Shown here: positions 1 to 34,529 of the stretch, piece after piece
How positions within the stretch are numbered: position 1 is the first letter of the stretch
How the letters are laid out: the number at the start of each line of letters is the position of its first letter
Virus record (IMG/VR): IMGVR_UViG_3300046532_004458
Coordinates: 1 to 47,968 of that record
Direction: 5' to 3' (one strand)
From: a virus
Length of the DNA: 47,968 bases
Translations under genes and position numbers: made by a program
The notes under the pieces: generated by a model
Seen by the model: the letters and a program-made list of their open reading frames with translations, nothing else
Database searches by the model: none
Told to the model about the DNA's origin: nothing

Positions 1-120
1 GAATCAGAAAAATGCGTAAAAGAACAAATCGCCGACAGTGAAGACGATATAGATTTCGCCATGATAATGGGAGCGGGTTGGGCTCCGTTTCTCGGAGGCC
101 CCAGGACCTACTCAAGATGA
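1..120 (+). CDS. 3-hydroxyacyl-CoA dehydrogenase / FadB-FadJ-type protein, C-terminal fragment
   Basis: The window opens inside this gene; only the last 39 codons are present, in frame 1, ending at TGA 118-120. The visible tail, DIDFAMIMGAGWAPFLGGP, matches the C-terminal helix of the 3-hydroxyacyl-CoA dehydrogenase half of bifunctional fatty-oxidation enzymes (family pattern: DxDxAMxxGxGxxPFxGGP). In that family the enzyme hydrates enoyl-CoA and oxidises the 3-hydroxyacyl-CoA with NAD. The acyl-CoA dehydrogenase 220 bp downstream acts one step earlier in beta-oxidation, which supports the assignment. Whether the whole protein is bifunctional or a stand-alone dehydrogenase cannot be told from this piece. 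Confidence 0.8.
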   Translation, partial: ESEKCVKEQIADSEDDIDFAMIMGAGWAPFLGGPRTYSR

Positions 121-338
121 CAAGCAAAGGAGAATCTATATGTCAGGAATTCTGCCACGAAGTGCTGGCTAGAGTAGAAGAAATCAAATGCCGCCTAAGA
201 ATAGAGCACTTCACACCCCTAATGGAGCGTATGGTGGAGGCTGGATATTGCTGCACACAAGTAAAAAAAGTCAAACCCGAAAAAGATTGTATAGCGTTTT
301 TTGAGCGCGCTCAAGAAGATATAGACTACGAATTTTAA
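117..338 (+). CDS. Small protein between two beta-oxidation genes, unknown function
   Basis: A 73-residue protein. I chose the ATG at 117 because it overlaps the TGA of the upstream dehydrogenase as ATGA, the usual sign of translational coupling; a TTG start at 78 would lie inside the upstream gene. The protein has five cysteines (two in QEFCHE- and IKC-type contexts, then a CC pair) and an acidic C-terminus, with no signal peptide or membrane segment. Only one base separates its stop from the next ATG, so it is probably co-expressed with both fatty-acid genes. I do not recognise the family. Confidence 0.55.
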   Translation: MTSKGESICQEFCHEVLARVEEIKCRLRIEHFTPLMERMVEAGYCCTQVKKVKPEKDCIAFFERAQEDIDYEF

Positions 339-339
339 A

Positions 340-2157
340 ATGAGCATAGATACATCTAAAATGTCAAAAGACAAAGCTGCAGCCCTAGAGGCCGCAGAGG
401 AAGGGAGAGAAAATTTAAGCAAAAGCTTTGCGGGGGGCCTTTATAGCGGAACCATAAATTTCGCAGATATATTTCCATTCCCAGAGCAGGATTGCCTCCA
501 GAAAAAAATAGGAGATGCGTTCTCAGAGGACTTGGAGGAAGTTTTTGAAAAATACATTAACCCAGATCAGATCGACGAAGAGGGAGAGATACCGAACGAG
601 GTCTTTGAGGAGTTGGGAAAAATAGGAGCCTTTGCAATAAAGGTTCCAAAGGAATATGGAGGAAGGGGACTGTCTCAAACAAATTACTCAAGAGCCGCGA
701 TGATTTGTGGCGGAAAATGCGGAAACACTTCGGCGCTTCTTTCCGCGCATCAGTCGATAGGAGTTCCGCAACCACTATTAATGTATGGGACGAAGGAGCA
801 AAAAGAAAAATATTTACCCAAATTCGCCAACGGCTCAATAAGTGCCTTCGCCCTAACCGAAGATGGGGTCGGCTCAGACCCTTCGAAAATGACCACGAAA
901 GCAGAACCCTCAGAAGACGGCTCGCACTTCATATTAAGTGGGGAGAAGTTATGGTGCACCAATGGACTAAAAGCGGACCACATTGTAGTCATGGCAAGAA
1001 CTCCAGACAAAAACGGCAAAAAACAAATCACCGCGTTCATAGTAGATATGGACTACCCTGGAGTAAAAATTGAACACAGGTGCAGGTTCATGGGGCTAAA
1101 GGCTCTTTATAACGGTATAGTTAGTTTTAAAAACGTTAAAATCCCAAAAGAAAATATAATTCTCGGAGAGGGGAAAGGCATGAAGGTCGCCCTAGGAACC
1201 TTAAATATTGGAAGGCTAACCCTTCCAGCGATATGCGTGGGCTCCACAAAATGGATGCTAAAAGTTTGTAGAGAGTGGGCCTCCACAAGATCACAATGGG
1301 GATGTGTTATTGGAAAACATTCAGCAATTGCAGACAAAATAGCCCAACTCGCCTCCAGTACATTTGCGATGGAGTCTATGGTTCTACTTACCGCCCAAAT
1401 GGCAGACAATAAAAAACACGACATTAGAGTAGAGTCCGCAATAGCCAAAATGTGGGGCACAGAGGTGGCCTGGGAAATGATAGACGAGACAATGCAAATC
1501 AGGGGAGGTAGAGGGTACGAAACGGCACAATCACTAAAAAACAGGGGGCAGCCATCACCCGCAGTAGAAAGGGTACTTAGAGACTTAAGGATAAACCTGA
1601 TCTTTGAGGGGTCAAGCGAAATAATGAGACTTATATTGGCCAGAGAAGCCCTGGACCCCCACCTAAAGGTGGCAGGAGCAGTCCTCGACTCCAGACTACC
1701 GATTAAAAAGAGGGTTATCGCAGCAATCAAAGCTCTGTGGTTTTACTCAAAATGGTACCCGAGGCAATGGCTCCCAATTCCCCATAAACTCCCAAAGGAT
1801 ATTCACCCCTCACTGAAACCCAAGCTGAGGTTTGTCTCAAGATCTAGCAAGAAATTAGCTCGCAAGCTTTTCCATTCTATGATTCGATACGGCCCAGGGT
1901 TAGACAAACAGCAATTGCTACTAGGAAGATTGGCAGAAATAGGCGCAGAGCTATTTGTTATTTCCGCATCCGTCTCTCGAGCGCAAGCACTTAACAATAA
2001 GGAAGTTTTAAAACTCGTAGACTGCGTCTTCGAAAATTCTAAATTAAGAATTGAAGAAAAGTTTCGAGCCCTAAAAGGCAACAACGACAAGAAAAATTAT
2101 ATTCTAGCAAAGGAAGTGCTGGATTCAGACTATAAATTCCTAGAAAGTATTGTGTAA
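340..2157 (+). CDS. Acyl-CoA dehydrogenase (long, FadE/VLCAD-like)
   Basis: A 605-residue flavoprotein that would oxidise acyl-CoA to trans-2-enoyl-CoA. The first ~60 residues are low-complexity. Then come the N-terminal helical domain (EYGGRGLSQ about residues 107-115), the beta domain with the flavin/substrate signatures FALTEDGVGSDPSK and SGEKLWCTNG, and the C-terminal helical domain with QIRGGRGYE and FEGSSEIMR. In this family the Glu of the FEG(T/S) motif is the catalytic base; here it is residue 423. A ~150-residue C-terminal extension makes it the length of very-long-chain enzymes. It starts one base after the preceding small gene. All key motifs are intact, so it looks functional. Beta-oxidation enzymes are unusual in a phage. 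Confidence 0.92.
   Translation: MSIDTSKMSKDKAAALEAAEEGRENLSKSFAGGLYSGTINFADIFPFPEQDCLQKKIGDAFSEDLEEVFEKYINPDQIDEEGEIPNEVFEELGKIGAFAIKVPKEYGGRGLSQTNYSRAAMICGGKCGNTSALLSAHQSIGVPQPLLMYGTKEQKEKYLPKFANGSISAFALTEDGVGSDPSKMTTKAEPSEDGSHFILSGEKLWCTNGLKADHIVVMARTPDKNGKKQITAFIVDMDYPGVKIEHRCRFMGLKALYNGIVSFKNVKIPKENIILGEGKGMKVALGTLNIGRLTLPAICVGSTKWMLKVCREWASTRSQWGCVIGKHSAIADKIAQLASSTFAMESMVLLTAQMADNKKHDIRVESAIAKMWGTEVAWEMIDETMQIRGGRGYETAQSLKNRGQPSPAVERVLRDLRINLIFEGSSEIMRLILAREALDPHLKVAGAVLDSRLPIKKRVIAAIKALWFYSKWYPRQWLPIPHKLPKDIHPSLKPKLRFVSRSSKKLARKLFHSMIRYGPGLDKQQLLLGRLAEIGAELFVISASVSRAQALNNKEVLKLVDCVFENSKLRIEEKFRALKGNNDKKNYILAKEVLDSDYKFLESIV
2152..2156 (+). promoter_or_regulatory. GTGTA start-proximal motif, 9 nt before ATG
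   Basis: GTGTAATAT ends in the stop of the acyl-CoA dehydrogenase; nine bases separate GTGTA from the ATG at 2166. It belongs to the recurring GTGTA-N9/10-ATG set. Overlap with the GTG TAA codons means it could be coincidental here. Confidence 0.4.
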
Positions 2158-2517: not shown

Positions 2518-2790
2518 ATGTTTCAATTCATCATCAAATGGTCGCTATATTCAGTAGGAACCCTATATATATTCGTAGAGAAATTGCGCCGATACCCCAA
2601 TGAGGAAAAGGGAAATATCCTCGGACTGCCAATAGACAAAGAGTTTCAGTCGATGTCTCGATTTGACTTGTGCGACTACATGAATGACTATATGCCTCGC
2701 TCTGGTTTTTGGGAGCTCAACAGCACAACAAAAATAAGACTAGGGGCTCAATTGTTGAAAAATTCGGAGAAAGACGATGTCTCCAAATAA
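2518..2790 (+). CDS. Small protein with one N-terminal membrane segment, unknown
   Basis: A 90-residue protein. The first ~20 residues (FIIKWSLYSVGTLYIFV) form a membrane anchor or uncleaved signal. The remainder is soluble, with DLCDYMNDYMPRSGFW and a hydrophilic end. It overlaps the following lipoprotein gene by 14 bp, which suggests coupled translation within an operon of envelope genes. No family recognised. Confidence 0.6.
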   Translation: MFQFIIKWSLYSVGTLYIFVEKLRRYPNEEKGNILGLPIDKEFQSMSRFDLCDYMNDYMPRSGFWELNSTTKIRLGAQLLKNSEKDDVSK

Positions 2791-3379
2791 TAAAAAAACA
2801 TTTTGGCTAATATCATTTGCATTATTTCTTTTAGTTTTGTCCTTTTGCTCTGGATGCAAAACCCTCCTTCCTAGCGGGCAAGAGACCTCAACGGCAACAT
2901 GGAAAACCTATGCGGAGGCAGAACAAACATTCAAAAGGATTATTCCAAGCAAAACCACCAAGGGAGAACTCGAGGCTTTAGGTATAGACTTCAATAAAAC
3001 TCCAAACCTAAAAAGCCTAACTTATCTAGACGTTATGGAAAGGTTTAAGCTAGATAGTACGGTTTTCAATAAGCTCAAACTTCCCCCTGGCATCGAAGGG
3101 GCGTTAAATAAGCATGAGAAATGCCTGGCTTACGAATTAAATTTAGAGTACGTTGACAAGCGGAGAGTGGGAGGCTTCTGGAAAGATCTTTTGGCGTTCG
3201 AGCAGGTCACGCAAAGGAAAGGGTGGGCCTTCAACGCCCTAATAGTAATGGTTGACGATACAGTTATTTATGTTTTGTACTCTGGATCTCCGAAGATTAA
3301 CACTAGAGAATCAAACAAACAGCCCCTTGGTCCCTTTCAGGGGATTGATGCGGGCGCCATTCTGGACGCGGCAAAATGA
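2777..3379 (+). CDS. Lipoprotein, BamE/OmlA-like
   Basis: A 200-residue protein with a lysine-rich n-region, a hydrophobic core (FWLISFALFLLVLSF) and a lipobox CSGC, so it should be acylated on Cys27 and anchored in the envelope. After the lipobox the pattern FKRIIPSKTTKGELEALGID resembles the start of the SmpA/OmlA (BamE) fold, where a 'G/S-K-T' turn precedes a helix. That similarity is by eye only. It overlaps the upstream gene by 14 bp and the downstream lipoprotein by 4 bp (ATGA). A phage lipoprotein of this kind could coat the outer membrane or block superinfection, but that is inference. Confidence 0.7.
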   Translation: MSPNNKKTFWLISFALFLLVLSFCSGCKTLLPSGQETSTATWKTYAEAEQTFKRIIPSKTTKGELEALGIDFNKTPNLKSLTYLDVMERFKLDSTVFNKLKLPPGIEGALNKHEKCLAYELNLEYVDKRRVGGFWKDLLAFEQVTQRKGWAFNALIVMVDDTVIYVLYSGSPKINTRESNKQPLGPFQGIDAGAILDAAK

Positions 3380-4186: not shown

Positions 4187-4191
4187 GTGTA
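4187..4191 (+). promoter_or_regulatory. GTGTA start-proximal motif, 9 nt before ATG
   Basis: TTGTGTATATA lies just before the ATG at 4201; nine bases follow GTGTA. No purine-rich Shine-Dalgarno sequence and no convincing -35 box are present. Member of the recurring set. Confidence 0.6.
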
Positions 4192-4755: not shown

Positions 4756-5577
4756 ATGAAATCATTATATATCACCATACTTCTCGCGATAGGTTTAACG
4801 ACCTTTTTATTTAGTCAACAACGTTCGCTGGGAGAGAAGCCTCAGATTGAAAAGCCTCACCCGCAGAAAATATTCCCGAAGCACTGGGGTCACCCACCCA
4901 AGATTCAGACGCGTGATTTTATTCCGTTGCCTGCTCCATATGGTCGTGGAAGCTCTACCCTGTCGCATTGGATTATGGACAACCTAACACAGGACGCAAA
5001 GGATTCTGATAAGGGAGAGGGCAAGAAGAAACCTGTCGAAGAGCTAAAACCAAGACCAAAACCCCCAGCAAAACCACAGCCTCGCCCAGAACCGCCTATA
5101 GATATTAAGGAAAAGATGGATTTGCACAAGACAACGCAAAAGGGATTACAGGAGGGCCTTCGCAAGAACCTGCAGACTCTCGGAAAGAAACCATCCCGCG
5201 AGGAAGTTCGCAAGACACTTGAAAAGTTCCGTGCGGAAAACAAAGACGCGATTGAGGCGCAAGAGGAATTGGGAAAGATGATTAATGAATGGCAAAAGAA
5301 AAATCGTCCAGAGCGTCCCAAGAAACCCGAACCAACTGCAGAAGTAAAGGAAAAGCTGAAACAAGTTCATGAGAAGCAAAAAGAATTCAACGCAGTCAAG
5401 GAAGAGTTTCGCGAAAAGCTGAAGAACTCAAGAGAGCTGCCCAAAGAAGAGCGGTTGGAGCTAATCAAGCTCTTCAAGCAATCAAACGCCGATAAGCATA
5501 AAGCAATCAAGGAGGCTCAAAAAGCGCTAACTCAAGAAGTTAGAGGCAAAACCCAAACCAAGGACAGAAGAGAATAA
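4756..5577 (+). CDS. Exported proline-rich coiled-coil protein with a PVC-like motif
   Basis: A 273-residue protein. Residues 1-20 form a Sec signal peptide ending near FLFSQQ. Residues 43-75 carry WGHPPKIQTRDFIPLP and YGRGSSTLSHWI, a motif I associate with exported Verrucomicrobia proteins (WGxPPxIQTxDxxPLPxGYGxGSSTLxxWI); this is recollection, not a search. A proline/lysine-rich linker (about 95-120) and a long charged helix (about 120-270) follow. No catalytic motif. The gene has both promoter signatures. It is probably a surface or periplasmic structural protein copied from the host. Confidence 0.65.
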   Translation: MKSLYITILLAIGLTTFLFSQQRSLGEKPQIEKPHPQKIFPKHWGHPPKIQTRDFIPLPAPYGRGSSTLSHWIMDNLTQDAKDSDKGEGKKKPVEELKPRPKPPAKPQPRPEPPIDIKEKMDLHKTTQKGLQEGLRKNLQTLGKKPSREEVRKTLEKFRAENKDAIEAQEELGKMINEWQKKNRPERPKKPEPTAEVKEKLKQVHEKQKEFNAVKEEFREKLKNSRELPKEERLELIKLFKQSNADKHKAIKEAQKALTQEVRGKTQTKDRRE

Positions 5578-6662: not shown

Positions 6663-8576
6663 ATGAAAAATAAAAAAATAAAACGAGCATCGCTCATAAA
6701 TCTAGTGGCTGGATATCTAATGATGTCCTTTTTTGTAGTTTTAATAGTGGCTGGTAGCCCACCCGACGCAGTAGTAGCCGTTGAACACATAGAAGATGTG
6801 CCAGAGACTTTGGTCGAAAATATCGGTGACGTAGATGTGGAGCCAGAGCCTGTCATTTTAGACCCAGAAGGTAGAGAAATTGTATATGTTGATAGAGGTT
6901 TTGTTAGAGATGGTGATATCGGACTCGACTTAGCTCGAAACCATCTTGTCGTTAGCGATGGCATCGATATTGTTAGAGACAGAACAATAACAAACCTCGG
7001 AAATAATCACGATGGCAACATTTACATTGACAATGATAGAGGTGTGGGTATAATTAGGGGAGCAGATGACACAATTCATAGTAGAGCTAATGGTGGTCGC
7101 CGCCATAACGATGATGTTGTGGTGGACCGCAATCGCCCCATTAATCACGGCGATGACTACGTTAGAGTAAACGAGGACTACGATGCTGGGGTATTGGATC
7201 GACGGCTTGAGAATTTATCAGACAACAATATACTCTCGGACGACGACAAATACGGGATTGACGGTCAAGACTTAGGAAACCTGACAATCGATGATGGCGA
7301 AGATGAAGACATTTCGATAGAGTCATTTACAAATGAAGATGGGTTCGGGCCAGAAGGGCTTGTTGAGGATAAAGGCGATTTATACGCTTATAATTACCCC
7401 AGTCAAGGAGTAGGAGCAGGCATAGGAAATGCAGGAGTTGGCGCCGCTGTGGGATTCGCTGGGATTGGAGCTGGAATAGGGGAAGCGGTCCTTAATGGAA
7501 AAACAGTACCCGCTCTTGGAGGAATTGGCTCTGCGTCACCTACTCCAATAAACATGAAGGTTACTCCAGAAAACGACAAGGATAAAGATGGGTTGCCAGC
7601 TTCTGTTGAGGCTCAATTGGGGACAAATCCTAATAATTCAGATACAGACGGAGATGGCATAAAAGACGGAGACGAGGTGTCGAGTTATTCCAACCCCCTT
7701 GATAAAGGAAGTACTCCATCCGATCCAGGCTCTTCCCCTTTGCCTCAGATTGGCGGAGTTGGAGGGTTAATGAGTGGGGCTGGCGCTGGAGTTGCAGCTG
7801 GATTAGTAACGGGCACCATAAAAGAAAAACTCGGGCTAGGGGTTGGGTGCGAAGAGCACGGAGCGGGTTGCAATGGCGGACACGGCGGACATGGAAAACA
7901 CGAATACGACCTTCCGCCCGATGGGGCATTACATATCATGATGCATGTTGATGGAAGCGGTTCTATTCTGGACACGCGCAAGCAACTTGAGATCATGAAA
8001 GATACGCTGTTGAAAAACGCCCTTCTTCCGTATTACAATAACGACGAATCACTTTACAATAGAAGGGTTACGATTATAGACGGTAACGGCGAGCGAACCT
8101 TACAGTTCTTCACTCAAGCAACCAAAGTAGCAAACGTCTTGGCTCTTGTCTTCCAAGATGAGGCGGCTCCTGCATATCACCTACCAACGTTTAACAAAAA
8201 ACCTCAAGATCATTACGCTAAAGACTTGCAGAAACTGAAAGCGGAATTAAACCAATATGGTGGACTATATCGCGGAGTAATGTTTCAAGTAGATAGGGGA
8301 AAAACCTTTGCGAAGTCGTTCAAAGAATTTGTGGAATGCGCATGGCAAGGGACGGGGTACCTAGAGAATTCAAATCTTAAAAAGTATTATTGGCAAGAGA
8401 ACAAACGAAACATTAAACACAAGGAAGGTGTCGTATTCAGCGACGAATACCACGCCAAGGATTCGGGTGATCCACAATATTATTTAGAATTGATCATGGG
8501 TGCGTCCAGGAAGGTGGGTCTAGACTTGAGAGAAAAGGGCTCAGGACTTACCGACGGCAAACAGAATGACAGATGA
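6663..8576 (+). CDS. Membrane-anchored protein with calcium-binding TSP3-like repeats and a von Willebrand A-like domain
   Basis: A 637-residue protein: N-terminal membrane segment or signal (residues 11-30), a very Asp-rich region (about 40-230), a glycine/alanine-rich stretch with possible membrane propensity (GVGAGIGNAGVGAAVGF), then DKDKDG and DTDGDGIKDGD calcium loops (about 304-335) of thrombospondin type 3 kind. A Gly/His/Cys patch follows, then a vWA-like domain with the MIDAS pattern DGSGS (Asp430, Ser432, Ser434) for a divalent metal. vWA domains usually bind proteins or host surfaces. It overlaps the next gene by 4 bp. Possibly an adhesin or envelope modifier; activity is not deducible. 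Confidence 0.65.
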   Translation: MKNKKIKRASLINLVAGYLMMSFFVVLIVAGSPPDAVVAVEHIEDVPETLVENIGDVDVEPEPVILDPEGREIVYVDRGFVRDGDIGLDLARNHLVVSDGIDIVRDRTITNLGNNHDGNIYIDNDRGVGIIRGADDTIHSRANGGRRHNDDVVVDRNRPINHGDDYVRVNEDYDAGVLDRRLENLSDNNILSDDDKYGIDGQDLGNLTIDDGEDEDISIESFTNEDGFGPEGLVEDKGDLYAYNYPSQGVGAGIGNAGVGAAVGFAGIGAGIGEAVLNGKTVPALGGIGSASPTPINMKVTPENDKDKDGLPASVEAQLGTNPNNSDTDGDGIKDGDEVSSYSNPLDKGSTPSDPGSSPLPQIGGVGGLMSGAGAGVAAGLVTGTIKEKLGLGVGCEEHGAGCNGGHGGHGKHEYDLPPDGALHIMMHVDGSGSILDTRKQLEIMKDTLLKNALLPYYNNDESLYNRRVTIIDGNGERTLQFFTQATKVANVLALVFQDEAAPAYHLPTFNKKPQDHYAKDLQKLKAELNQYGGLYRGVMFQVDRGKTFAKSFKEFVECAWQGTGYLENSNLKKYYWQENKRNIKHKEGVVFSDEYHAKDSGDPQYYLELIMGASRKVGLDLREKGSGLTDGKQNDR

Positions 8577-10618
8577 GATTAATATTATTACTCTTGTTGT
8601 CCCCGCTAATCTGCTGTGCAGGAAAAATATACTTTAACGACGGAAACGTCCTTGATGGAAAGATTCTGGAGGCTAACGGATCTCACGTAACCATTGAGAG
8701 AGCAGAAGACCTTCAAAAGTTTAAATTTCCAATCAACTTGCTAACGATTGATTCTCAAAAAGAAATAGAATTATACCACTCACAGGATAGGTATAGCAGC
8801 ATTCCATCACTTAAGACTCCCCTAGACAAGGGGACGAGAAATAGCTATGCAGCCCATATCGATAAGTTGATTGACGGGAACCTAAGATCTAAACAAATAA
8901 ATAAAACCAAAAGCCTGGACGAATACTCGTATACTAGAAGGGTATACCTAACACTCATAGGAAGAATACCCTCTCAATCCGAGTTGATAGAATTTGTAGA
9001 CAATAGAGACCCGAGCAAAAAAGAAAAATTAATACAAAAACTTTTAAATTCTGAGGGCTACGTAAATCACCAAATTAACTGGTGGTCAGACATGCTAAGG
9101 GTAAAAGATCGACCAGCGGGAACAAATATAAACGTGGGGTCAGTATATAGGGAATGGTTGAGAAAAGCGCTGAGGGAGAAAAAGCCCTATGACGAAATGG
9201 TAAGAAATCTAATATCGAGCGCTGGAGAACTATATGGCAACGGCCCAGAAGTCAGTTACTATATAAGAGATAGAGGCATGCAAGAAGATAATCTTTCTCA
9301 TACGATTAGGGTGTTTTTGGGCACAAGATTGCAGTGTGCAATGTGTCACGATCACCCCTTTGACAGGTGGACGCAAAAGGAATTTTACGAGATGACCGCC
9401 TTCACGTCTGGGATAGGTAATGTAAGATTAAATGATGCAAATAAAAAGATCGGCAAATTAAATAAAATCATCAGAGAGGACGAAGACGAAAGATCTGGGA
9501 CATTTAACAACTGGAGAAATCAAGTTAGAGATGCGACTTATTTTGGGTTAGAGAATAGCGGTACAGGAAAAATTAAACTGCCAAAAGATTATGCGGAAAG
9601 CGACGGAGAGCCAGGAGATGTCGTTCACGCGAAGGCTATCTTTACCCCCAAACCTGTCCTTGATCCTAAAAATCCTGACCCCAAAAGCAGACTAGTTCTT
9701 GCGGAGTGGATAACAAGCAAGGATAATCCTAGATTTACCACAATGATCGCAAACAGGATCTGGAAACATATCTTTGGAGTCGGCTTAATCGAACCAATAG
9801 ATACAATGATGGACGACACTGTTGCAAGCAATCAAGAATTAATGAAGCACCTAGAAAGAATCATGGTAAGCGTAAATTATGATTTAAGGGAATATAAAAG
9901 AGTGCTGCTCAATACAAGGCTCTTCCAAAGACAAAGCATGCGGCAAGATTATAAATCATTAGAAGAATATTCCTTTGCAGGCCCACTATTACGAAGAATG
10001 ACTGGAGAGCAAGTGTGGGACTCTTTGGTTACATTAGTATATAATGAGATCGATGACTCAACAAGAACATACCTCCATAATCAGCACGACCACAGTGTAA
10101 TATATAAAAGATATAAGGATGTAACCGCTGAAGAAATATATGCAGACTTCAAGCAACTAGCGAAAGAAAGCCCTAATGATCGAAATTTTCTACGAGTATT
10201 GGGTGCGGACCATTACCAAACAGAGGAAATGAAAAATTTTCGAGACAAAAACCTGGTGAGAAGTAGTTATTTGCAATCGCCTGCTCCCAGCGGACATCTC
10301 ATTCGCCAATTCGGAGGAAGCGATAGAGAGCAAATAGATAATAGCAACAACGAACCAAACACCACACAAGTATTAACCCTTCTCAACGGCTTCGTAGAAA
10401 CCAACATTCTAAACAAGAAGGATGCAGACTTCATGAAACAAGTTCAGGCTGAAACTGTAAAAAACAAACAGATAGAAAGCGTGTTTCTCTCGACGCTCTC
10501 AAGAAAACCAACAACAAAGGAAATAAATGCCCTTAAAAAGCTAATTGATTCCAAAGATGGCTTCAAGCATGTTTCCTGGGTCTTATTAAATTCACATGAA
10601 TTTGTATTTATAAAATAA
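8573..10618 (+). CDS. DUF1549/DUF1553 protein (PSCyt2/PSD1 family) with CxxCH motif
   Basis: A 681-residue exported protein: signal peptide (residues 1-16), an SH3-like N-terminal segment (IYFNDGNVLDGKILEANG), DUF1549 with GTRLQCAMCHDHPFDRWTQ, and C-terminal DUF1553 (SRLVLAEWI, RFTTMIANRIWKHIFG, DTMMDD, SAPGHL-like ASGHLIRQFGGSDRE, NTTQVLTLLNG). The CAMCH is a cytochrome-c type haem-binding motif. In Planctomycetes and Verrucomicrobia these proteins are encoded in many copies beside DUF1501 genes, and their biochemical role is unsettled. The DUF1501 partner is present here, one gene downstream. It starts at an ATGA overlap. Length and motifs look intact, so it is not a decaying fragment. Confidence 0.9.
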   Translation: MRLILLLLLSPLICCAGKIYFNDGNVLDGKILEANGSHVTIERAEDLQKFKFPINLLTIDSQKEIELYHSQDRYSSIPSLKTPLDKGTRNSYAAHIDKLIDGNLRSKQINKTKSLDEYSYTRRVYLTLIGRIPSQSELIEFVDNRDPSKKEKLIQKLLNSEGYVNHQINWWSDMLRVKDRPAGTNINVGSVYREWLRKALREKKPYDEMVRNLISSAGELYGNGPEVSYYIRDRGMQEDNLSHTIRVFLGTRLQCAMCHDHPFDRWTQKEFYEMTAFTSGIGNVRLNDANKKIGKLNKIIREDEDERSGTFNNWRNQVRDATYFGLENSGTGKIKLPKDYAESDGEPGDVVHAKAIFTPKPVLDPKNPDPKSRLVLAEWITSKDNPRFTTMIANRIWKHIFGVGLIEPIDTMMDDTVASNQELMKHLERIMVSVNYDLREYKRVLLNTRLFQRQSMRQDYKSLEEYSFAGPLLRRMTGEQVWDSLVTLVYNEIDDSTRTYLHNQHDHSVIYKRYKDVTAEEIYADFKQLAKESPNDRNFLRVLGADHYQTEEMKNFRDKNLVRSSYLQSPAPSGHLIRQFGGSDREQIDNSNNEPNTTQVLTLLNGFVETNILNKKDADFMKQVQAETVKNKQIESVFLSTLSRKPTTKEINALKKLIDSKDGFKHVSWVLLNSHEFVFIK

Positions 10619-10623
10619 GTGTA
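10619..10623 (+). promoter_or_regulatory. GTGTA start-proximal motif, 10 nt before ATG
   Basis: AAGTGTAATAC lies between the stop of the DUF1549/1553 gene (10618) and the ATG at 10634. Ten bases separate GTGTA from ATG. A short GGA is the only Shine-Dalgarno candidate. Confidence 0.6.
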
Positions 10624-11214: not shown

Positions 11215-12483
11215 ATGGAAGAAACTAGCAGGCGAAAATTCGCAGAAAATATAGCAAAAAGCCTACTGGGAGTGGGGGCAATACTTGGGAGTCGGGATCT
11301 TTTCGCGGCGAATGTCCCAGCAAACATACCAACGGCAAGAAGCGTTATATTTTTATATATGGCGGGAGGGATGACTCACATTGATACCTTCGACCCCAAG
11401 CCCGAGAATAAAGAGGTTATGGGAGAAACAACCGCAATAGATACTTCTGCAGACGGAATCCAACTAGGTCATTGGCTCCCAGAGACTGCAAAACAAATGC
11501 ATAGAGCCTCACTCATTCGCTCTCTAAATACAAACCAAGGGGCGCACCAGCAAGCAAATTACCTTTTACATACAAGTTATCAAAAAAGAGGAACTATCAT
11601 TCATCCGACCCTAGGAAGTTGGATTACAAAAAAAAGAGGACAACTCAACCCCACTCTCCCAGCTAATGTTCGGATAAATGGCGGTAGTGATATTCTTGGC
11701 GCTGGCTATTTAGAAAAGAAATACGGGCCACTTCCATTAGGGAACCCAAGCGCAGGAATTCAAAACGTAAAAAAAGCTGGATATGTAAGTCAAAACCTAT
11801 ACAACGAAAGACTGGATATATCAAAATCTTTTAATTCAAATTTCCTAAATGACTTTCCACAAAAACAAGTCAGAGCATATACGGACCTTTATGATGACGC
11901 GATTAAGTTAATGAAAAGCAAGGATCTCGACTCGTTTGACTTAACGAAAGAAAGTCAAGCCACCAGAGACGAATACGGAGACAATAACTTCGGACAAGGA
12001 TGTCTTCTGGCGAGAAGGTTGGTTGAAAATAGCGTAAGGTTTGTGGAGGTTCAGTACGGAGGATGGGACATGCATAATGATGTCTTTGGAAATCTCGAGT
12101 CTAAAGCTGCAACATTGGACCAGGGGCTTTCAGCTCTTCTTAAAGATCTAGATAGGAGGGGACTTCTCTCTGAGACTATGGTTGTCGTCGCCAGTGAATT
12201 TGGTAGATCTCCAGAAATTAAGACTGGCAGAGTCGGGAGAGACCATCACCCCTCTTCTTTTAGCGCTCTACTCGCGGGAGGCGGAATTAAGCCTGGTTAT
12301 TCATACGGAAAGTCAGACGATAGAGGTCATTACATAGAAGAAAAAGGAGTAGGCATGGAAGACTTGAATGCAACGATAGCTCACGCAATGGGGATCGATA
12401 TAGGAAAAACTGAATACTCTCCAAGCGGAAGACCTTTTAAGATTGCACATAATGGCAACGTAATTAAGGACGTGTTGGCATGA
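11215..12483 (+). CDS. DUF1501 protein (alkaline phosphatase/sulfatase superfamily), Tat-exported
   Basis: A 422-residue protein. The N-terminus has a twin-arginine signal (SRRKF, then GVGAILG and LFAAN). The body shows DUF1501 marks: FLYMAGGMTHIDTFDPKP, GAHQQANYLLHTS, HPTLGSWI, VEVQYGGWDMHND, VVVASEFGRSP, GRDHHPSSFSALLAGGGI. The Asp/His pattern places it in the alkaline-phosphatase/sulfatase fold; substrates are unknown. In PVC bacteria it pairs with DUF1549/1553 proteins. Start fixed by the ATG three bases after the previous stop and by the complete Tat signal. It overlaps the next small gene as ATGA. Confidence 0.92.
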   Translation: MEETSRRKFAENIAKSLLGVGAILGSRDLFAANVPANIPTARSVIFLYMAGGMTHIDTFDPKPENKEVMGETTAIDTSADGIQLGHWLPETAKQMHRASLIRSLNTNQGAHQQANYLLHTSYQKRGTIIHPTLGSWITKKRGQLNPTLPANVRINGGSDILGAGYLEKKYGPLPLGNPSAGIQNVKKAGYVSQNLYNERLDISKSFNSNFLNDFPQKQVRAYTDLYDDAIKLMKSKDLDSFDLTKESQATRDEYGDNNFGQGCLLARRLVENSVRFVEVQYGGWDMHNDVFGNLESKAATLDQGLSALLKDLDRRGLLSETMVVVASEFGRSPEIKTGRVGRDHHPSSFSALLAGGGIKPGYSYGKSDDRGHYIEEKGVGMEDLNATIAHAMGIDIGKTEYSPSGRPFKIAHNGNVIKDVLA

Positions 12484-13892: not shown

Positions 13893-14417
13893 ATGAATTT
13901 ATACAACATTCCGACCCATCCCGAATCCCCTCAAAGAATTAATGCGATTATCGAGATACCAAAAGATACTAATGTCAAATATGAATATGATCCAAAGTTA
14001 GGGGTATTCACTTACGATAGAAGTTTATTAAGCGCTATGGTCTATCCTGCGAGTTATGGGTTCATACCTCAAACATTAGCGGAAGATGGAGATGCACTAG
14101 ATGTCTTGGTATATAACGCTATGCCAATAGACACAGGGACTTTAGTTGAGTCAAGAGTCATAGGGGTTTTAGATATGGAGGACGAAGGGTTTAAAGACTA
14201 TAAGGTGCTAACAACTCCAGTATCTCATGTTAAAGAGTATAGGTCATTAGCAGACATTGATTCTAATTTTTTGAGAATATGCCAAAACTTCTTTTCTCAT
14301 TATAAAGACTTAAACAATAAGAAAGTAAAAGTTCTAGATTGGCACGAGGCAGACATTGCCAAAGAAATAGTCGCCTCCAACTACAAAGTTGAGAAGCGAC
14401 AAGTAAGCGTATACTAA
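13893..14417 (+). CDS. ppa: Inorganic pyrophosphatase, family I
   Basis: A 174-residue soluble enzyme that hydrolyses pyrophosphate and so pulls DNA synthesis forward. All catalytic residues known from the E. coli enzyme are present and at matching positions: Glu21, Lys29, Glu31, Arg43, Tyr55, Asp65/67/70 in EDGDALDV, Asp97, Asp102, Lys104, and HYK at 136-138. The length is normal for the bacterial hexameric type. It directly abuts the glycosyltransferase stop (TAA then ATG) and converges on nrdB with an 18-bp gap. In a phage it fits the nucleotide/replication module: RNR and polymerase lie next to it. Confidence 0.95.
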   Translation: MNLYNIPTHPESPQRINAIIEIPKDTNVKYEYDPKLGVFTYDRSLLSAMVYPASYGFIPQTLAEDGDALDVLVYNAMPIDTGTLVESRVIGVLDMEDEGFKDYKVLTTPVSHVKEYRSLADIDSNFLRICQNFFSHYKDLNNKKVKVLDWHEADIAKEIVASNYKVEKRQVSVY

Positions 14418-14435
14418 TACAGTATATATATTGAC

Positions 14436-15449
14436 TTAAAAATCGTCTTCAAGGGAGCCTCCCTGTTGGTATTCCCTAACCCTTCTCTCGAAGAAGTTGC
14501 CCATAGCTTGAACGTCAACTACCTCACCTAGCCAGGGAAATGGGTTTTGGTCATTAGGGAATCTATAATCTAACCCTATAGACTCCAATCGTCGATTGCC
14601 AATATAATGCATATAATCCACAAACATATCCGCATTTAAGCCCAGTATGCCCACAGGGAGAACATCGTGAGCGTATGCTATTTCCAGCTCCACGGCCCGT
14701 TTGATATGATCAATAAATTCCCCTTGTATTGCCTTTGTCCAGATAGAAGGGTTCTGTTCAATCAGTGTGTTTATAACATAAACTCCAAACTGAATATGGA
14801 TACTTTCATCTCTCAAGGTATACTTGATTTGATCAGAGACTCCCTGAAGTTTGTTTTGCCTACCTAAAGCCAAAAGCATTGCGAAGCCGCTAAAGAAAAA
14901 CGTTCCCTCGCAAACTATGTAATAAGTTAGAAGATTCCTTAAGATTTCTTGTTTGCCAACTTTCGTTGTAGCGTCGAAATCTGGCCTGCTAATGTCCGTG
15001 GTAATCTCGATGAGGAAATCATCCTTAGCTTTGATGCTAGGAATGGTTTCGTATGCATTAAATACTTCGTCGATATCCAGGTCCAGGCTATCACAAATAT
15101 ATACAACGGTAAGGTTATGAAGACTTTCCTCAAAAGCTTGGCGCTGAATATACTGGCGACATTCAGCATCCGTAATAAATCTAAAAGCAGAAAGCAGCAG
15201 GTTGTTACCAACCAAAGACTCGCTTCCAGCAAAAAACCCGAGGCATCTCTTGACGAGGAGTTTTTCATCATCCGTAATTTCTCCATGTTTCCATTGTTTG
15301 ATATCGTTTTGCATTGAGATCTCTGTAGGCATCCAGTTGTTGGCGCAGCTCTTCAGAAATAAATCCCAAGCGTATTTATGTTTATGAGGTAAAATCCTAT
15401 TCACCCCCGCTACATCAGTAGACAATAATTCTCCAGTTTTATCATTCAT
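14436..15449 (-). CDS. nrdB: Ribonucleotide reductase small subunit R2, class Ic-like (no radical tyrosine)
   Basis: A 337-residue ferritin-like R2 that provides the radical for NrdA. I chose the ATG at 15449 because a -10 box lies 8 nt upstream; a TTG at 15467 would fall inside that promoter. Metal ligands are Glu77, Glu108, His111, Glu181, Glu215 and His218. The first ligand is Glu instead of the usual Asp, and the position of the radical tyrosine (four after His111) is Val115. In Chlamydia R2 (class Ic, Mn/Fe cofactor) the same two sites are Glu and Phe. The C-terminal tail REYQQGG...DDF for docking NrdA is intact, with Tyr327 available for electron transfer. Confidence 0.93.
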   Translation of the reverse strand: MNDKTGELLSTDVAGVNRILPHKHKYAWDLFLKSCANNWMPTEISMQNDIKQWKHGEITDDEKLLVKRCLGFFAGSESLVGNNLLLSAFRFITDAECRQYIQRQAFEESLHNLTVVYICDSLDLDIDEVFNAYETIPSIKAKDDFLIEITTDISRPDFDATTKVGKQEILRNLLTYYIVCEGTFFFSGFAMLLALGRQNKLQGVSDQIKYTLRDESIHIQFGVYVINTLIEQNPSIWTKAIQGEFIDHIKRAVELEIAYAHDVLPVGILGLNADMFVDYMHYIGNRRLESIGLDYRFPNDQNPFPWLGEVVDVQAMGNFFERRVREYQQGGSLEDDF

Positions 15450-15457
15450 AGCTTTAT

Positions 15458-15486
15458 ATGATAACAAAAATATACAACGAAGTCAA
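15458..15486 (-). promoter_or_regulatory. Sigma70-like promoter for nrdB: TTGACT-N17-TATCAT
   Basis: On the minus strand TTGACT (15486-15481), 17-nt spacer, TATCAT (15463-15458), 8 bases before the nrdB ATG. nrdB therefore seems to have its own promoter, although it follows nrdA. Confidence 0.75.
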
Positions 15487-15503: not shown

Positions 15504-17948
15504 TCATTGACAGCTCTCACAACTTTCCCCTCGAGATGCCGCATCTATACTGCATGAAGCAACCTCGCTACCAGCAACTTCATCTGTAGATTTTTCTATT
15601 TTCGAAGCGGCTCTATTCCTGAGGTAGTAAGTCGTCTTAAGCCCAGCCTCCCAAGCGGCCATATATACGTCATTCAAGTACTTCAGGGAAGTTGTTTTAT
15701 TATATAGGTTAAAACTAACAGACTGGTCCATCCATTTTTGCCTAACCGCGTTGCACTCTATAAGCTTAAACATATCCCTGTCAAAAGCCGTTTTATATTT
15801 CACCTTAATCCATTCTGGAATTTCTCCATTCAATAAAGAAATGTCTCCATCCACGTTTTTAATTAAAGAAGCCATCTTGGAAGACCAAAGACCAAGATCC
15901 TTCATGTCCCTTATAAAGTATTCATTAGTTATGTAAAAATTCCCGCTTTTATTCTCGTAAACAAACAATGTAGAAAAGTTAGGCTCGATACTCTGCTCCA
16001 CTCCATTGATGTACCCAATCGTTGCAGTAGGAGCGATAGCCATAACGTTGGAATTCCTCATTCCGTGTTCCTTAACATGCTCTCTAATAAAACTAAAATC
16101 CGAAGAGGTCTCGGTGGATACCTCCTTACCTCTATAGTCCATTAAGTTTTTCCAACTATCAATAGGGAAAACATCGTTATCCCAAAGGGATCCATCGTAG
16201 GTTTGATACTTGCCCCTCTCCTTTGCGAGTTTCGAGCTAGCTAGAATAGCGTGGTGACTATAAAACTCAAAAAGCTTATCGTTGAACTCTACAGCTTCAT
16301 CGCTGTCAAAATTAATCCCAAACGAATGGAGGGTGTCGTGCAACCCCATAACGCCCAGTCCTATTGGCCTGTGGAGAAGATTTGATTGGCGAGATTCCTC
16401 TGTTGGGTAAAAATTGATATCAATAACATTATCAAGAGCGCGAATCGCCAAGTGAATAGTTTCTTCGAGCTTTGGATAATCAAGCTCTCTCTTGAGAGAA
16501 GCTCCGTCTTTTCCAAAGGTTTCATTGATGTGATTTGGGAGATTAATTGACCCCAGGTTGCAGACGGCAGTCTCCCCGTGTTGGATTTTCTTTCCATCCC
16601 TATATTGGGAAGCCTTGGTATGCAGGGTTATCTCTGTACACAAATTAGAGCTGTGAACAGTCCCCTCGTGCTGGTTGGTATATCTAATATTACACGGATC
16701 CTTGAACGTATTCCAAGGGTGGCTGGTTTCGAACAAAACTTTCAACATCTTTTTCCACAAATCCTTCGCGCTAACTTTCTTGAAGTTCCTTATCTTTCCG
16801 TTTTCTGCGAGTCTTATGTACTCAGCGTATTTTTCATCAAATTTACTACCATATAGATCGTGGAGGCCCTTGCATTCGCAAGGATCAAACATATACCAGT
16901 CCTCTGCCGCTTGAGCCTTCCTCATAAAAAGGTCAGGAATCCATGATGCGGTGTTTAGGTCGTGACAGCGGAGTCTTTCGTCTCCAGTGTTTTTCCTAAG
17001 ATTTAAAAACTCCTCATAATCCAAATGCCACGGTTCAAGGTAAGCGCATCCAGCTCCTGGCCTCTTGCCCCCCTGATTTACCGCAACCAATAAATCATTA
17101 TATATTTTAAGCCAAGGCACTAATCCGCTAGAGACTCCGTTAGTTCCCTTTATATAAGAGCCAGTAGATCTAAAAGGAGTCACATCTAATCCTAGTCCTC
17201 CAGCGTATTTAGACTTCCTAGCCTCTTGCCATGCCCCGTCAAAAATACCATCTATAGAATCATCGAAGGTATTAAGGTAGCAAGAGCTCAATTGAGATCT
17301 AGATGTTCCGCTATTAAATAGAGTAGGGGTGGACGGGGTATATCTAAACTGACTAAATAAATTATAAAACTTAATTGCATATTCCTCCTTATTTTCTTCA
17401 TTTAGGGAAAGTCCCATAGCGACTCTCATCCAAAATGCTTGCGGAGCCTCCATGATTTTATCATTCTCGCGTATAAAATACCTATCATGCAAGGTCTGAA
17501 TTCCAAGATACTTAAATTTCTTATCTCTTTTTATATCTATAGCTCTAGACAGCTTCTTTAGATCGAAAGTCAAAAGCCTCTCATCCATCCTTCCAACGCT
17601 GACTAGCGTTTTTATGTTCTGGATAAAAGTTTTCTTATATTGAAGCTCAAACGTATCAGAATCAACTCCCTCGCGGAATACTTCCTTATATAGACTATTT
17701 AAGAGTAGCCGCGCCGCCACATAGTTATAGTTAGGCTCCTTCTCGATCTTCTCCCTGGCAGACAAGATTAGAGCTTTGTCTATTTCCTCCGTGGTGATTT
17801 TATCGTAGAGCTGGAGCTGAGCGTCAAGCACTGTTTCACTTGCGGAAATATCCGTTATCCCCTCGCACGCTCTTTCTGCACTCGCATTAATCTTTTCCAC
17901 TAGGAAGTCTTGAAGTCGACCGTTTCTTTTTTTAACTTTTATATTCAT
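15504..17948 (-). CDS. nrdA: Ribonucleotide reductase large subunit, class I
   Basis: An 814-residue catalytic subunit that reduces NDPs to dNDPs. An N-terminal ATP-cone (residues ~3-95; VKKRNGRLQDF) gives allosteric activity control. The active site has Cys223 (SSCYLN), the radical cysteine Cys437 in SSNLCTEI with Asn435 and Glu439, and Cys463 (VCNLGSINL). The radical-transfer pair is Tyr774-Tyr775 (TTYYLRNRA), and a C-terminal CESC (Cys810, Cys813) accepts electrons from thioredoxin or glutaredoxin. Every key residue is kept. It is divergent from the replicase genes; the two promoters lie back to back at 17.96-18.05 kb, consistent with joint early expression. Confidence 0.97.
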   Translation of the reverse strand: MNIKVKKRNGRLQDFLVEKINASAERACEGITDISASETVLDAQLQLYDKITTEEIDKALILSAREKIEKEPNYNYVAARLLLNSLYKEVFREGVDSDTFELQYKKTFIQNIKTLVSVGRMDERLLTFDLKKLSRAIDIKRDKKFKYLGIQTLHDRYFIRENDKIMEAPQAFWMRVAMGLSLNEENKEEYAIKFYNLFSQFRYTPSTPTLFNSGTSRSQLSSCYLNTFDDSIDGIFDGAWQEARKSKYAGGLGLDVTPFRSTGSYIKGTNGVSSGLVPWLKIYNDLLVAVNQGGKRPGAGCAYLEPWHLDYEEFLNLRKNTGDERLRCHDLNTASWIPDLFMRKAQAAEDWYMFDPCECKGLHDLYGSKFDEKYAEYIRLAENGKIRNFKKVSAKDLWKKMLKVLFETSHPWNTFKDPCNIRYTNQHEGTVHSSNLCTEITLHTKASQYRDGKKIQHGETAVCNLGSINLPNHINETFGKDGASLKRELDYPKLEETIHLAIRALDNVIDINFYPTEESRQSNLLHRPIGLGVMGLHDTLHSFGINFDSDEAVEFNDKLFEFYSHHAILASSKLAKERGKYQTYDGSLWDNDVFPIDSWKNLMDYRGKEVSTETSSDFSFIREHVKEHGMRNSNVMAIAPTATIGYINGVEQSIEPNFSTLFVYENKSGNFYITNEYFIRDMKDLGLWSSKMASLIKNVDGDISLLNGEIPEWIKVKYKTAFDRDMFKLIECNAVRQKWMDQSVSFNLYNKTTSLKYLNDVYMAAWEAGLKTTYYLRNRAASKIEKSTDEVAGSEVASCSIDAASRGESCESCQ

Positions 17949-18058: not shown

Positions 18059-18832
18059 ATGTTAGCTTTGTTCAAATCACACTTCTCTATAGGAAAAAGT
18101 ATACTTACCCTTGATGATCCAATTACACTGAAACCTGGAGGAGCAGATAGTATTTTCGATATAGCAGAGGAAAACAATCTCAAGAAAATCGTCCTTGTAG
18201 AAGACTCTCTCACGGGTTTTCTTCAAGCCAAGAAAGTGGCAGAAAGTCATAACATGCAGATAGTCTTCGGGTTGCGACTGGACATGTGCCAAGACGCAAC
18301 GCTAGACCCAAAGAAGGAAGAACAAAATTCCCGCCATAAAATTATTGTTTTTTCTAAAAATAATGAAGGGTGCAGATTACTAAATCAAATTTACAGCGAA
18401 GCATTCACGACTCTCCATAACGCAACAGACTCTGCGCACCTTAAGGAACTATGGAATGACGATCACCTTAAACTTGCGATTCCTTTTTATGATTCCTTTA
18501 TATTTAATAATACTATGCGCTTCAGCAATTGCACTCCAAGCTTTTCTTTTACCAAACCAACACTCTTTATAGAAAACAACGAACTCCCTTTTGATAAGCT
18601 TATTAAGTCTAGGGTCTCAGAGTACGCTTCAAGTAATAATTATAAAACGGAATTAGCAAAAAGCATTTATTATAAAAACAAAAAAGACGTCACCGCCCTG
18701 CAAACCTATAAATGCATCTGCGGAAGAGGCTTTGGAAACAAAACTTTATCAAAACCAAACTTGGATCATTTCGGAAGCGACACGTTTTGCTTCGAAAGCT
18801 GGAAGGAGTTAAATGAAAGAAACGCTACTTAG
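18059..18832 (+). CDS. DNA polymerase III alpha, separate N-terminal PHP-like domain (degenerate)
   Basis: A 257-residue protein starting at the ATG right behind the promoter; a TTG 36 nt upstream would be the -35 box itself. It follows the DnaE N-terminus: strand plus SHFSIGKS (the 'HVHSxYSLLxG' region), IFDIAEENNLKKIVLVEDS (the 'ALTDHGNLxG' region), IVFGLRLDM ('PIIGCEV'), IIVFSKNNEGCRLLNQIYSEA ('lla.n..Gy.nL..l.s.a'), ending DTFCFESWKELNE ('fylks.eEM'). The metal-binding His/Asp residues of motifs I and II are mostly lost, so it is probably a structural, non-catalytic PHP domain. It overlaps the exonuclease gene by 20 bp. Confidence 0.75.
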   Translation: MLALFKSHFSIGKSILTLDDPITLKPGGADSIFDIAEENNLKKIVLVEDSLTGFLQAKKVAESHNMQIVFGLRLDMCQDATLDPKKEEQNSRHKIIVFSKNNEGCRLLNQIYSEAFTTLHNATDSAHLKELWNDDHLKLAIPFYDSFIFNNTMRFSNCTPSFSFTKPTLFIENNELPFDKLIKSRVSEYASSNNYKTELAKSIYYKNKKDVTALQTYKCICGRGFGNKTLSKPNLDHFGSDTFCFESWKELNERNAT

Positions 18833-19460
18833 GTTCCGAAAAGACCAAAAATACCTAATCTTTGATTACGAAACTTGTAATCTTAACTTGGTTGCTGGAC
18901 ACAATAAGCCCTGGCAGCTTGCGTTTGTTGTGGCGCAAGGAAACAAAATACTCGACAAGCAAGATTATTGGTTAAAGTGGGACGATTTGAATGTTTCCCC
19001 AGAAGCGGCCAAAATTACTGGCTTTTCCAAAACGAAATACAATAAAAAAGCGATTGACCCGAAGAAGGCTCTAGACCACTTAGAAACATATTTGTATGAC
19101 AAGGAGTACATAAAGGTTGGACACAACCTCTTAGGCTTTGACGTTTATATGCACAACCTTCATCGAAAACTAATAAACCCTGACGCCAAATTAGACCACA
19201 GCTACACATTCAAGCTAGTGGACACTCTCTGTCTGGCTAAAGCGATAAAGAAGCAAATAAAATTAAACAAGGGAGACAATTTTCTAGCCTGGCAATACAG
19301 ACTTAGTAACTTGATAGAAAGAGGCTTAAGATGCAACCTCAAACAATGTTGCAAAGACTACGAAGTGGACTTTGACCCCACAAGATTACACGACGCACTT
19401 TACGACATTAGCGTAAACTACGAAGTTTTCAAAAAAATGATATGGGATATAGAAATATGA
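18813..19460 (+). CDS. DEDDh 3'-5' exonuclease (DnaQ/epsilon-like proofreading subunit)
   Basis: A 215-residue exonuclease expected to remove misincorporated nucleotides during replication. All five catalytic residues of the DEDDh class are visible: Asp18 and Glu20 (IFDYET), Asp110 in GHNLLGFD, and His193/Asp198 in HDALYD. It is encoded between the PHP piece and the polymerase core, overlapping the first by 20 bp and the second as ATGA. In PolC enzymes an exonuclease domain is inserted within PHP in one chain; here the same neighbours are separate cistrons. Confidence 0.85.
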   Translation: MKETLLRFRKDQKYLIFDYETCNLNLVAGHNKPWQLAFVVAQGNKILDKQDYWLKWDDLNVSPEAAKITGFSKTKYNKKAIDPKKALDHLETYLYDKEYIKVGHNLLGFDVYMHNLHRKLINPDAKLDHSYTFKLVDTLCLAKAIKKQIKLNKGDNFLAWQYRLSNLIERGLRCNLKQCCKDYEVDFDPTRLHDALYDISVNYEVFKKMIWDIEI

Positions 19461-26048: not shown

Positions 26049-27242
26049 TTAAACGATCAGACCCATGAGAACCCTGTCGTCAAGGATCACGCGGCCTTCC
26101 TCTAGGGAGCCATAGTAACCAATCTTAGATTGGCGGCTTACGAATTGATCATCTGCGACAAGAGTGAACTCTTCTCCAGATTCCGAATCGAGAGCTACTG
26201 CACGAATCAATGACTCGCGAGAGAGATCGATACCTACGCAGATTTCCTCGGTAGCGCTTGCGAAGTTGGCGGGCCCAGCATGTTCAGCCACCGCATAGTG
26301 GTCGTCGTATGCTACAGCTGGCGCTGCATCGAAAATACCATTCCATGCTTTATCGCCAACACCAAGTTCATTAAACTCTTGGATCGACACTCCGTAAAAT
26401 TCTGGGATTCCAGCACTATTATAAATAGCGTCACGCATACTATCCGTGGCAGGAATAACTCCGCCGCCTGGGTTGTTTACCGTGATGTCCGCCCCATTAG
26501 CTGGGTTCGGCAAGGTAATGGTTTGCGTTGAGCTAACTCCACGAGTATTAACTGGGTTATAAGCCAATCCACGAATTTCTTCCACGATCTCAGGAGAGAC
26601 CAGGAGGTCCGTGATGCCGCGTCCGCGACGATCAGCGGGAGTTCCACCGCTCCATGAGGAATTGATCCTCTTGGAGTTCGTCAACAGCTTGTTGAGGTCG
26701 GAGAGTAAAAACCTATCCTTTTGAGATGAACGGATAACATGCTTAGTGCTATTGGTAGTAGCAGCTGCAAGAGCGGTCATGATCATGGTCGCAGCGGTCT
26801 TCTCCTGCTTGAGGAGAATTTCCTGAGCGACCCGAGTGAAAGTCTTGCTAACTACGTCAAGGCGTGAACGCGAGGCGTAACGTTTGTCAAAACTTACGGC
26901 GCTGTCAAGCGTATAAGTCGTGAACTTCAGTTCGCTTTGCGAAGGAGCAACTTGATTGGTGGGCAAACCGCCTGGGGCCGATTGGCTCCAGATCTGAATA
27001 TAATCCTCGTCGGTAATATCATGGTAGAGATCCAAAGGAATGCTGGCGTTGTCGTCAGCATTAAACTGGAGAGAGCTAAACATGTTAGAAACCGTAGGAG
27101 CCGTATTGACAACTTGTGCCAGAACTGGCCCAATGAATTGGGCAAGCGCAGTCTGGGCCTCGTATGCGACGTCTCGGTTCTTGGACGCCATCGCTTTCAC
27201 GAGCTCTACCTGTTCGGGGGTTCTTTCTAATGTAATTTTCAT
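26049..27242 (-). CDS. Major capsid protein, HK97-fold type
   Basis: A 397-residue protein placed after the protease/scaffold and decoration genes and followed by a strong terminator, as expected for the most abundant virion protein. Features of a capsid subunit: helical N-arm (residues 1-60), FTTYTLDSAVSFDKRYASRS (an E-loop-like strand pair), a long helix QEILLKQEKTAATMIMTALAAA, a DLLVSPEIVEEIRGL spine segment, and C-terminal beta strands. No enzyme motif. The start has a clear AAGGA Shine-Dalgarno sequence. Codon use is more balanced than in its neighbours, in line with high expression. Confidence 0.82.
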   Translation of the reverse strand: MKITLERTPEQVELVKAMASKNRDVAYEAQTALAQFIGPVLAQVVNTAPTVSNMFSSLQFNADDNASIPLDLYHDITDEDYIQIWSQSAPGGLPTNQVAPSQSELKFTTYTLDSAVSFDKRYASRSRLDVVSKTFTRVAQEILLKQEKTAATMIMTALAAATTNSTKHVIRSSQKDRFLLSDLNKLLTNSKRINSSWSGGTPADRRGRGITDLLVSPEIVEEIRGLAYNPVNTRGVSSTQTITLPNPANGADITVNNPGGGVIPATDSMRDAIYNSAGIPEFYGVSIQEFNELGVGDKAWNGIFDAAPAVAYDDHYAVAEHAGPANFASATEEICVGIDLSRESLIRAVALDSESGEEFTLVADDQFVSRQSKIGYYGSLEEGRVILDDRVLMGLIV

Positions 27243-34186: not shown

Positions 34187-34529
34187 TAGCAGGTTTTTTG
34201 GATGAACTACGCTTTTTCGGTTGTTGTCCTTTATCAAATTCAGAGCCGTCTAGCTCTTCTAATGGAATTAGATCCGATAGCTTTATTTTAGTTGATGGGT
34301 CCATTTCTACGCTATACGACAGTTTGGTAATCTTCGGAACCTTAAATATATCTAGTCCATCTGGGTCAAAATCTTCGATACTCTCCCTCTCTAAGGGTAC
34401 GCGCTTTGGCTTAGATGCTTTGGCTACATCCGACTCAGAAAGTTCACTTCCACAGCCTCCGCAAAATTTAGGCGCACTAAGCGTATACATATTTTTGTAA
34501 CCGCATGACTTACAATAGGTAAACGACAT
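34155..34529 (-). CDS. Zinc-ribbon protein
   Basis: A 124-residue protein. The N-terminus has CKSCGYKN and CGGCGSEL, two CxxC knuckles (Cys8, Cys11, Cys23, Cys26) forming a zinc ribbon. A proline/serine-rich acidic middle follows (IEDFDPDGLDIFKVPKI), ending in a lysine-rich tail. Such proteins often act as transcription or RNA-polymerase adaptors. It is the first gene of the packaging operon and overlaps the sigma-like gene by 32 bp, so the two may work together in transcription. Confidence 0.65.
   Translation of the reverse strand: MSFTYCKSCGYKNMYTLSAPKFCGGCGSELSESDVAKASKPKRVPLERESIEDFDPDGLDIFKVPKITKLSYSVEMDPSTKIKLSDLIPLEELDGSEFDKGQQPKKRSSSKKPANGSNEKTKKT

Follow-up and report, generated by a model that had tools for sequence, protein, structure and literature searches.

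Phage-borne thiolase, FadB and acyl-CoA dehydrogenase genes as a probable auxiliary module for the core cycle of fatty-acid beta-oxidation

Arguments that viruses reprogram host lipid catabolism have so far drawn mainly on virome reads and individual genes. A study of the Pacific Ocean Virome proposed fadB and fadL as viral genes and fatty-acid oxidation as a form of viral metabolic reprogramming (PMC4053976). An acyl-CoA dehydrogenase (ACAD) on a soil viral contig was described as a transcribed auxiliary metabolic gene (AMG) (PMC8390657), and Prymnesium kappa virus RF01 and other giant viruses encode an ACAD and an acyl-CoA synthetase (PMC9270025). Further, when a marine bacterium short of phosphate was infected, its fatty-acid degradation proteins reportedly went up and its lipids were depleted (PMC11170926).

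The DNA analysed here (the window) is an entire linear IMG/VR record of 47,968 bases, the left end of which cuts into a FadB/FadJ-type gene. A first-pass annotation had read this end as the remainder of a FadB/FadJ-type dehydrogenase followed by an intact 605-residue ACAD in a coupled operon with a 73-residue protein, and all three parts of that description hold. An IMG/VR search with the window ACAD found a related virus contig of 107,410 bases, G001, which carries the full operon. The features of the window that bear on the argument are the following.

1–120, + strand: 3' end of the FadB/FadJ-type gene, matching the last part of the complete G001 FadB at 64% identity
117–338, + strand: 73-aa ORF with no assigned function and no Pfam match, absent from G001
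340–2157, + strand: VLCAD/ACAD9-type ACAD, 605 aa, with predicted catalytic Glu423 (from Pfam, solved relatives and alignment)
2152–2156, + strand: GTGTA motif inside the 3' end of the ACAD gene, 9 nt ahead of the following ATG (2166); the G001 site is the same
2166–2513, + strand: DUF2784 small protein, probably membrane; adjoins the module in G001 and lies near it in T4-like group B (see below)
2518–2790, + strand: module neighbour with no assigned function, 74% identical in G001 and not found in the other relatives compared
2777–3379, + strand: probable lipoprotein, module neighbour, 62% identical in G001
14436–15467, − strand: ribonucleotide reductase small chain, the right-hand phage flank of the accessory region
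15504–17948, − strand: ribonucleotide reductase large chain
18813–19460, + strand: phage DNA polymerase exonuclease subunit
19442–22018, + strand: phage polymerase of DNA polymerase III alpha type
26049–27242, − strand: probable major capsid protein (judged by its position and its conservation in the family; nothing matched in Pfam or PHROG)
29622–31493, − strand: terminase large subunit
33440–34237, − strand: sigma-70 region 2-like protein, conserved in the phage family

Frame 1 of bases 1–117 reads ESEKCVKEQIADSEDDIDFAMIMGAGWAPFLGGPRTYSR, then a stop, and comprises only the last 39 residues of the FadB, a fragment too short to give a Pfam match on its own. The FadB stop overlaps the start of the 73-aa ORF (ATGA), and the ACAD starts two bases past the stop of that ORF. 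No relatives of the 73-aa protein were found. By eye it resembles a split-off FadB tail, an idea that was rejected as its score against the tail profile was no higher than those of 500 shuffles. The ACAD itself matches the Pfam domains Acyl-CoA_dh_N, _M and _1 as well as the ACAD9/ACADV C-terminal domain, each over the cut-off (30.3 bits against 27.8 for the last). Its closest solved relatives are human ACAD9 (1.8e-86) and VLCAD (5.6e-80). Residue E423 occupies an invariant column aligned with the IFEG motif of ACAD9/VLCAD, and we take it to be the catalytic glutamate. The protein is of the VLCAD/ACAD9 type, for which FAD binding and ETF-coupled long-chain activity are predicted.

The terminase, phage-type polymerase, exonuclease and probable capsid gene mark the window as DNA of a tailed phage. 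A weak ACBP match at 4756–5577 (E 0.026) was disregarded. A family I inorganic pyrophosphatase is encoded at 13893–14417 (+), with a 40% identical relative in a T4-like contig of group C (G682). Unusual for phages are a DUF1549/DUF1553 protein (8573–10618, +) and, after it, a DUF1501 protein (11215–12483, +); by eye, similar pairs adjoin ribonucleotide reductase in the long relatives G004 and G042, and DUF1501 occurs in G001 and G017. These families are known mainly from Planctomycetota and their relatives, and the pair is a hint of the host group.

An operon cut by the end of a record, with clear bacterial relatives in the same gene order, may also have come from a bacterium, as a host flank, as a chimera at the edge of the contig or as randomly packaged DNA of which the phage makes no use. 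Against this, the module and its neighbours lie mid-contig in G001, where thiolase (420 aa), FadB (660 aa) and ACAD (605 aa) are all complete. The order there is UvsX-like recombinase, DnaB helicase, primase, Cas4-like protein, NUDIX, thiolase, FadB, ACAD and DUF2784 (the primase and the Cas4-like/PD-(D/E)XK protein were assigned by eye), and more genes common with the window follow to the right, up to ribonucleotide reductase. Phage genes thus stand on both sides, and no integrase or chromosomal junction was seen. In all, 33 window ORFs have G001 homologues in largely collinear order, and the two records have neighbours in common at 60–80% protein identity. Since the module sits in G001 between the phage replication module and ribonucleotide reductase, the worry about a contig edge or chimera is removed; a host flank or chimera at the edge is ruled out by this synteny, which is the same in two records, and a separate T4-like lineage has the module too. 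The earlier suggestion that the left arm is phage is therefore borne out, the thiolase, FadB, NUDIX, DnaB and UvsX genes all lying left of the ACAD in G001. A second contig from the G001 sample (L012), with a thiolase 100% identical to that of G001, was not counted as independent.

Composition and divergence point the same way. The ACAD proteins of the window and G001 are 80% identical, with dN at 0.13, dS saturated and identities of 0.82, 0.91 and 0.49 at the three codon positions, which indicates long-term purifying selection. GC at third positions is 0.34–0.45 in the phage ACADs and 0.89–0.96 in the sampled bacterial relatives, so that the genes are phage-like in composition. Further, a signal of the phage family precedes the gene after the ACAD (DUF2784) in both the window and G001. 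This is the GTGTA motif, which the first-pass annotation had cited as a shared motif suggesting that the left arm is phage. There is no overall excess of it in the window (33 sites against 46 expected), but it is strongly enriched next to starts: across eight members of the family it stands between −24 and −5 in 79 of 742 genes, where 3.4 were expected, mostly 9–10 nt ahead of the ATG. Start-proximal examples in the window lie at 2152–2156, 4187–4191, 10619–10623 and 37015–37019, with others in G001, G004, G011, G015, G017 and G042; the motif is nearly absent from T4-like contigs. GTGTA is a candidate phage promoter (short-leader) or non-Shine–Dalgarno start signal, and the sigma-70 region 2-like protein is a candidate for its reader. 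Taken with the synteny, the purifying selection, the composition and this signal leave the bacterial-DNA reading hardly any chance of being right.

The module is an accessory seldom met in the window's own phage family. More than 500 relatives came up in IMG/VR with an alignment of the terminase, and among the 50 contigs searched, many of them fragments, ACAD or thiolase was present in G001 and in none of the other 49, so the module is dispensable. In G004 and G042 the gap between the replication module and ribonucleotide reductase is filled by other genes, mostly glycosyltransferases (by eye). The expectation that such genes would be rare in phages holds for this family, but the module recurs in other phage lineages. 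Early viral scans with the two phage ACADs alone returned G001 only; family-wide alignments then uncovered three further groups, B, C and D, those that uncovered group B including bacterial relatives.

Group B consists of nine T4-like contigs, which a tail sheath and a single-strand binding protein show to be myoviral. The order is ribonucleotide reductase, DUF2784, Ldh-2 dehydrogenase (named in one contig), thiolase, FadB and ACAD, and the shorter contigs end within the module. Ribonucleotide reductase and the module with DUF2784 recur in both group B and the window lineage, as does a 60–70% identical protein encoded between the two reductase genes; aside from these and some weak or partial matches, no shared structural or replication genes were found. 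In the ACAD tree, the window and G001 (group A) form a single clade with group B (100/99) inside bacterial diversity. The FadB tree agrees weakly with this clade (86/89), and the thiolase tree does not distinguish a single origin from separate origins for A and B. One group-B phage has genes for arginine succinyltransferase, succinylarginine dihydrolase and serine dehydratase. In the T4-like contig G671 (L297:7394–13332 and L297:18156–19508), an arginine succinyltransferase-like set lies near the beta-oxidation genes, together with a serine dehydratase; the set comprises AstA and AstB, an incomplete aldehyde dehydrogenase, an aminotransferase of class III and an M20 peptidase.

Group C is T4-like by its polymerase, helicase and UvsX, and its thiolase and FadB come from a different branch. 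Two of its contigs have, by Pfam, an E. coli-type FadE that is unrelated to the VLCAD-type ACAD of the window and group B; the one tested passed the NCBIfam family cut-off. The loci of this group, with thiolase and FadB adjacent and FadE about 6 to 17 kb off on the same contig, are as follows.

L305:1759–4986 and L305:11197–13395
L308:2101–4224 and L309:795–4109

Group D (L260–L263) has a VLCAD-type ACAD at 44–47% identity, and one of its contigs is 171 kb long and includes a terminase; neither thiolase nor FadB was found beside the ACAD, and the group is kept out of the claim for a module. The single ACAD clade of A and B, together with the unrelated FadE of group C, means that phages acquired complete core sets on at least two occasions. 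At least two further phage lineages carry such enzyme sets, so infected cells probably receive a lipid-burning cycle from some of their phages.

The cellular counterpart of the module is found in bacterial operons with the order thiolase–FadB–ACAD, in Acidobacteriota (L244, L245) and Planctomycetota (L246). The three enzymes and their order are as in G001, with identities of 51–52%, 43–46% and 53–58%. The operons differ in being cellular and GC-rich and in having full-length FadB tails, and the planctomycete operon, unlike the phage module, has a CoA-ligase-like gene (by eye) just upstream. Among the Planctomycetota, Acidobacteriota and single genomes from further phyla that were compared, no donor phylum stood out. 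The cellular counterpart operon and the absence from 49 related contigs, many of them fragments, indicate host-derived metabolic genes that basic phage replication does not require, as expected of an auxiliary metabolic module.

The G001 FadB (L002:8017–9999) has the ECH and the N and C 3HCDH domains in a single chain, with E115 and E137 (hydratase) and H443 and E455 (the His–Glu pair of the dehydrogenase) in invariant columns, as are C90, H375 and C405 of the thiolase; these residues, too, are presumably catalytic. Beyond the GGP motif, the FadB of G001 and of the window stop within about ten residues, unlike the group-B FadB with its full tail; that the G001 FadB is without this usual tail is a point against the reading adopted here. 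The FadB is nearest to FadJ. Since the G001 protein scores under the NCBIfam FadJ equivalog cut-off (542.8 bits against 869), it was classed as FadB/FadJ-like and not as FadJ.

The module genes are phage-borne, complete in relatives and under selection, and a bacterial operon with the same gene order is related to them. We hold it probable that the thiolase–FadB–ACAD operon of the window and G001 is a genuine auxiliary metabolic module for the core beta-oxidation cycle, by which host lipid catabolism would be lifted. Most likely, the phage boosts fatty-acid catabolism of the host and gains acetyl-CoA, NADH and reduced ETF. No acyl-CoA ligase over the cut-off and no ETF were found in ten phage records, which are linear and perhaps not complete genomes. 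It follows that the host must supply both ends and that the module is a booster, not a stand-alone pathway. The original proposal of a module for lipid breakdown is upheld to this extent: the core cycle is there and, in G001, phage-borne, and of the genes asked about further left, thiolase and more phage genes are present in G001, whereas no ligase was found.

In the cycle as we picture it, a host ligase would provide long-chain acyl-CoA, which the phage VLCAD-type ACAD would desaturate, passing electrons to host ETF as its family suggests. The phage FadB would then carry out hydration and oxidation to yield NADH, as its conserved domains and residues imply, and the phage thiolase would release acetyl-CoA (in G001; that of the window would lie beyond the contig end). 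During infection, a larger flux into acetyl-CoA and respiratory electrons for phage production could thereby be drawn from membranes, lipid stores or scavenged fatty acid. Faster conversion of fatty acids to acetyl-CoA, NADH and reduced ETF would fit the low-phosphate infection described above (PMC11170926).

The same enzymes could instead remodel lipids or signals by removing or shortening particular acyl-CoAs or fatty acids, with a membrane change, acyl-CoA-responsive derepression or the loss of a signal or immune cue as the effect. DUF2784, a probable membrane protein, accompanies the module in both group A and group B, and a large energy flux depends on the host for ligase and ETF. However, a thiolase kept along with the two preceding cycle enzymes is a better fit to full turnover to acetyl-CoA, and the arginine and serine catabolic genes of group B point to a broader range of genes for feeding on what the host has stored. 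We regard remodelling as unlikely, if still a serious competitor. Much further from favour is that the enzymes run in the making direction or serve some other CoA pathway, for instance the breakdown of branched-chain, dicarboxylic or aromatic acyl-CoA. The thiolases of the window family and group B match several NCBIfam thiolase types and pass no specific equivalog cut-off, and the CoA-ligase-like gene ahead of the planctomycete operon would suit such a pathway. Yet the ACAD is nearest VLCAD/ACAD9 and the FadB nearest FadJ, both enzymes of long-chain beta-oxidation, and ETF-coupled ACAD reactions run downhill; we deem this very unlikely.

Boosted beta-oxidation may be more than the habit of one family. 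It is a tentative proposal, to which we give somewhat less than even chances, that complete three-enzyme cycles are a recurrent, convergent tool of environmental phages, the VLCAD-like block having moved between unrelated tailed-phage lineages and the E. coli-type FadE set having arisen independently in a T4-like lineage, to give lipid-burning virocells. If true, virion production in infected cells would be fed by respiration of the cells' own membranes or storage lipid. Full three-enzyme operons under selection, gained at least twice, make it a testable question whether host lipid is burned for virions; a further one is what share of lipid carbon is respired and what share released on lysis. 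Thiolase–FadB–ACAD beside ribonucleotide reductase provides a searchable marker for metagenome data.

GenBank phage records with ACAD, FadB or thiolase were considered as prior art. The matches listed were mainly mislabelled or bacterial, including Acinetobacter phage MD-2021a and Salmonella genomes; in Microcystis phage MaAM05 the neighbouring genes, FliM and MurJ among them, look bacterial, and MT835486 is unverified and unannotated. As these matches are mislabelled, bacterial or unverified, none was counted. Records such as MW495066.1 and CAKLQF/CAKLQH, phage-labelled but largely bacterial-looking (FliM, MurJ, fad genes), are a trap for AMG surveys.

In the published open-access papers searched, no report of a complete phage beta-oxidation set was found. 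In the Pacific Ocean Virome, fadB was reported as a viral gene family, but the genes were found singly on reads or short contigs; linkage to viral genes confirmed fadL and not fadB, and thiolase and ACAD were not named (PMC4053976). The soil viral ACAD is virus-encoded like that of the window, but it is a lone gene, with no cycle partners reported (PMC8390657). Large pmoC phages also contain ACAD DNA, though as a partial gene ascribed to recombination and without a module (PMC7674155). Giant viruses have eukaryotic hosts, and according to a review the hydratase and thiolase steps were detected in none of them (PMC9270025), whereas the phage module has both. Single fad genes in viromes had already been reported; a complete phage set on long contigs appears to be new.
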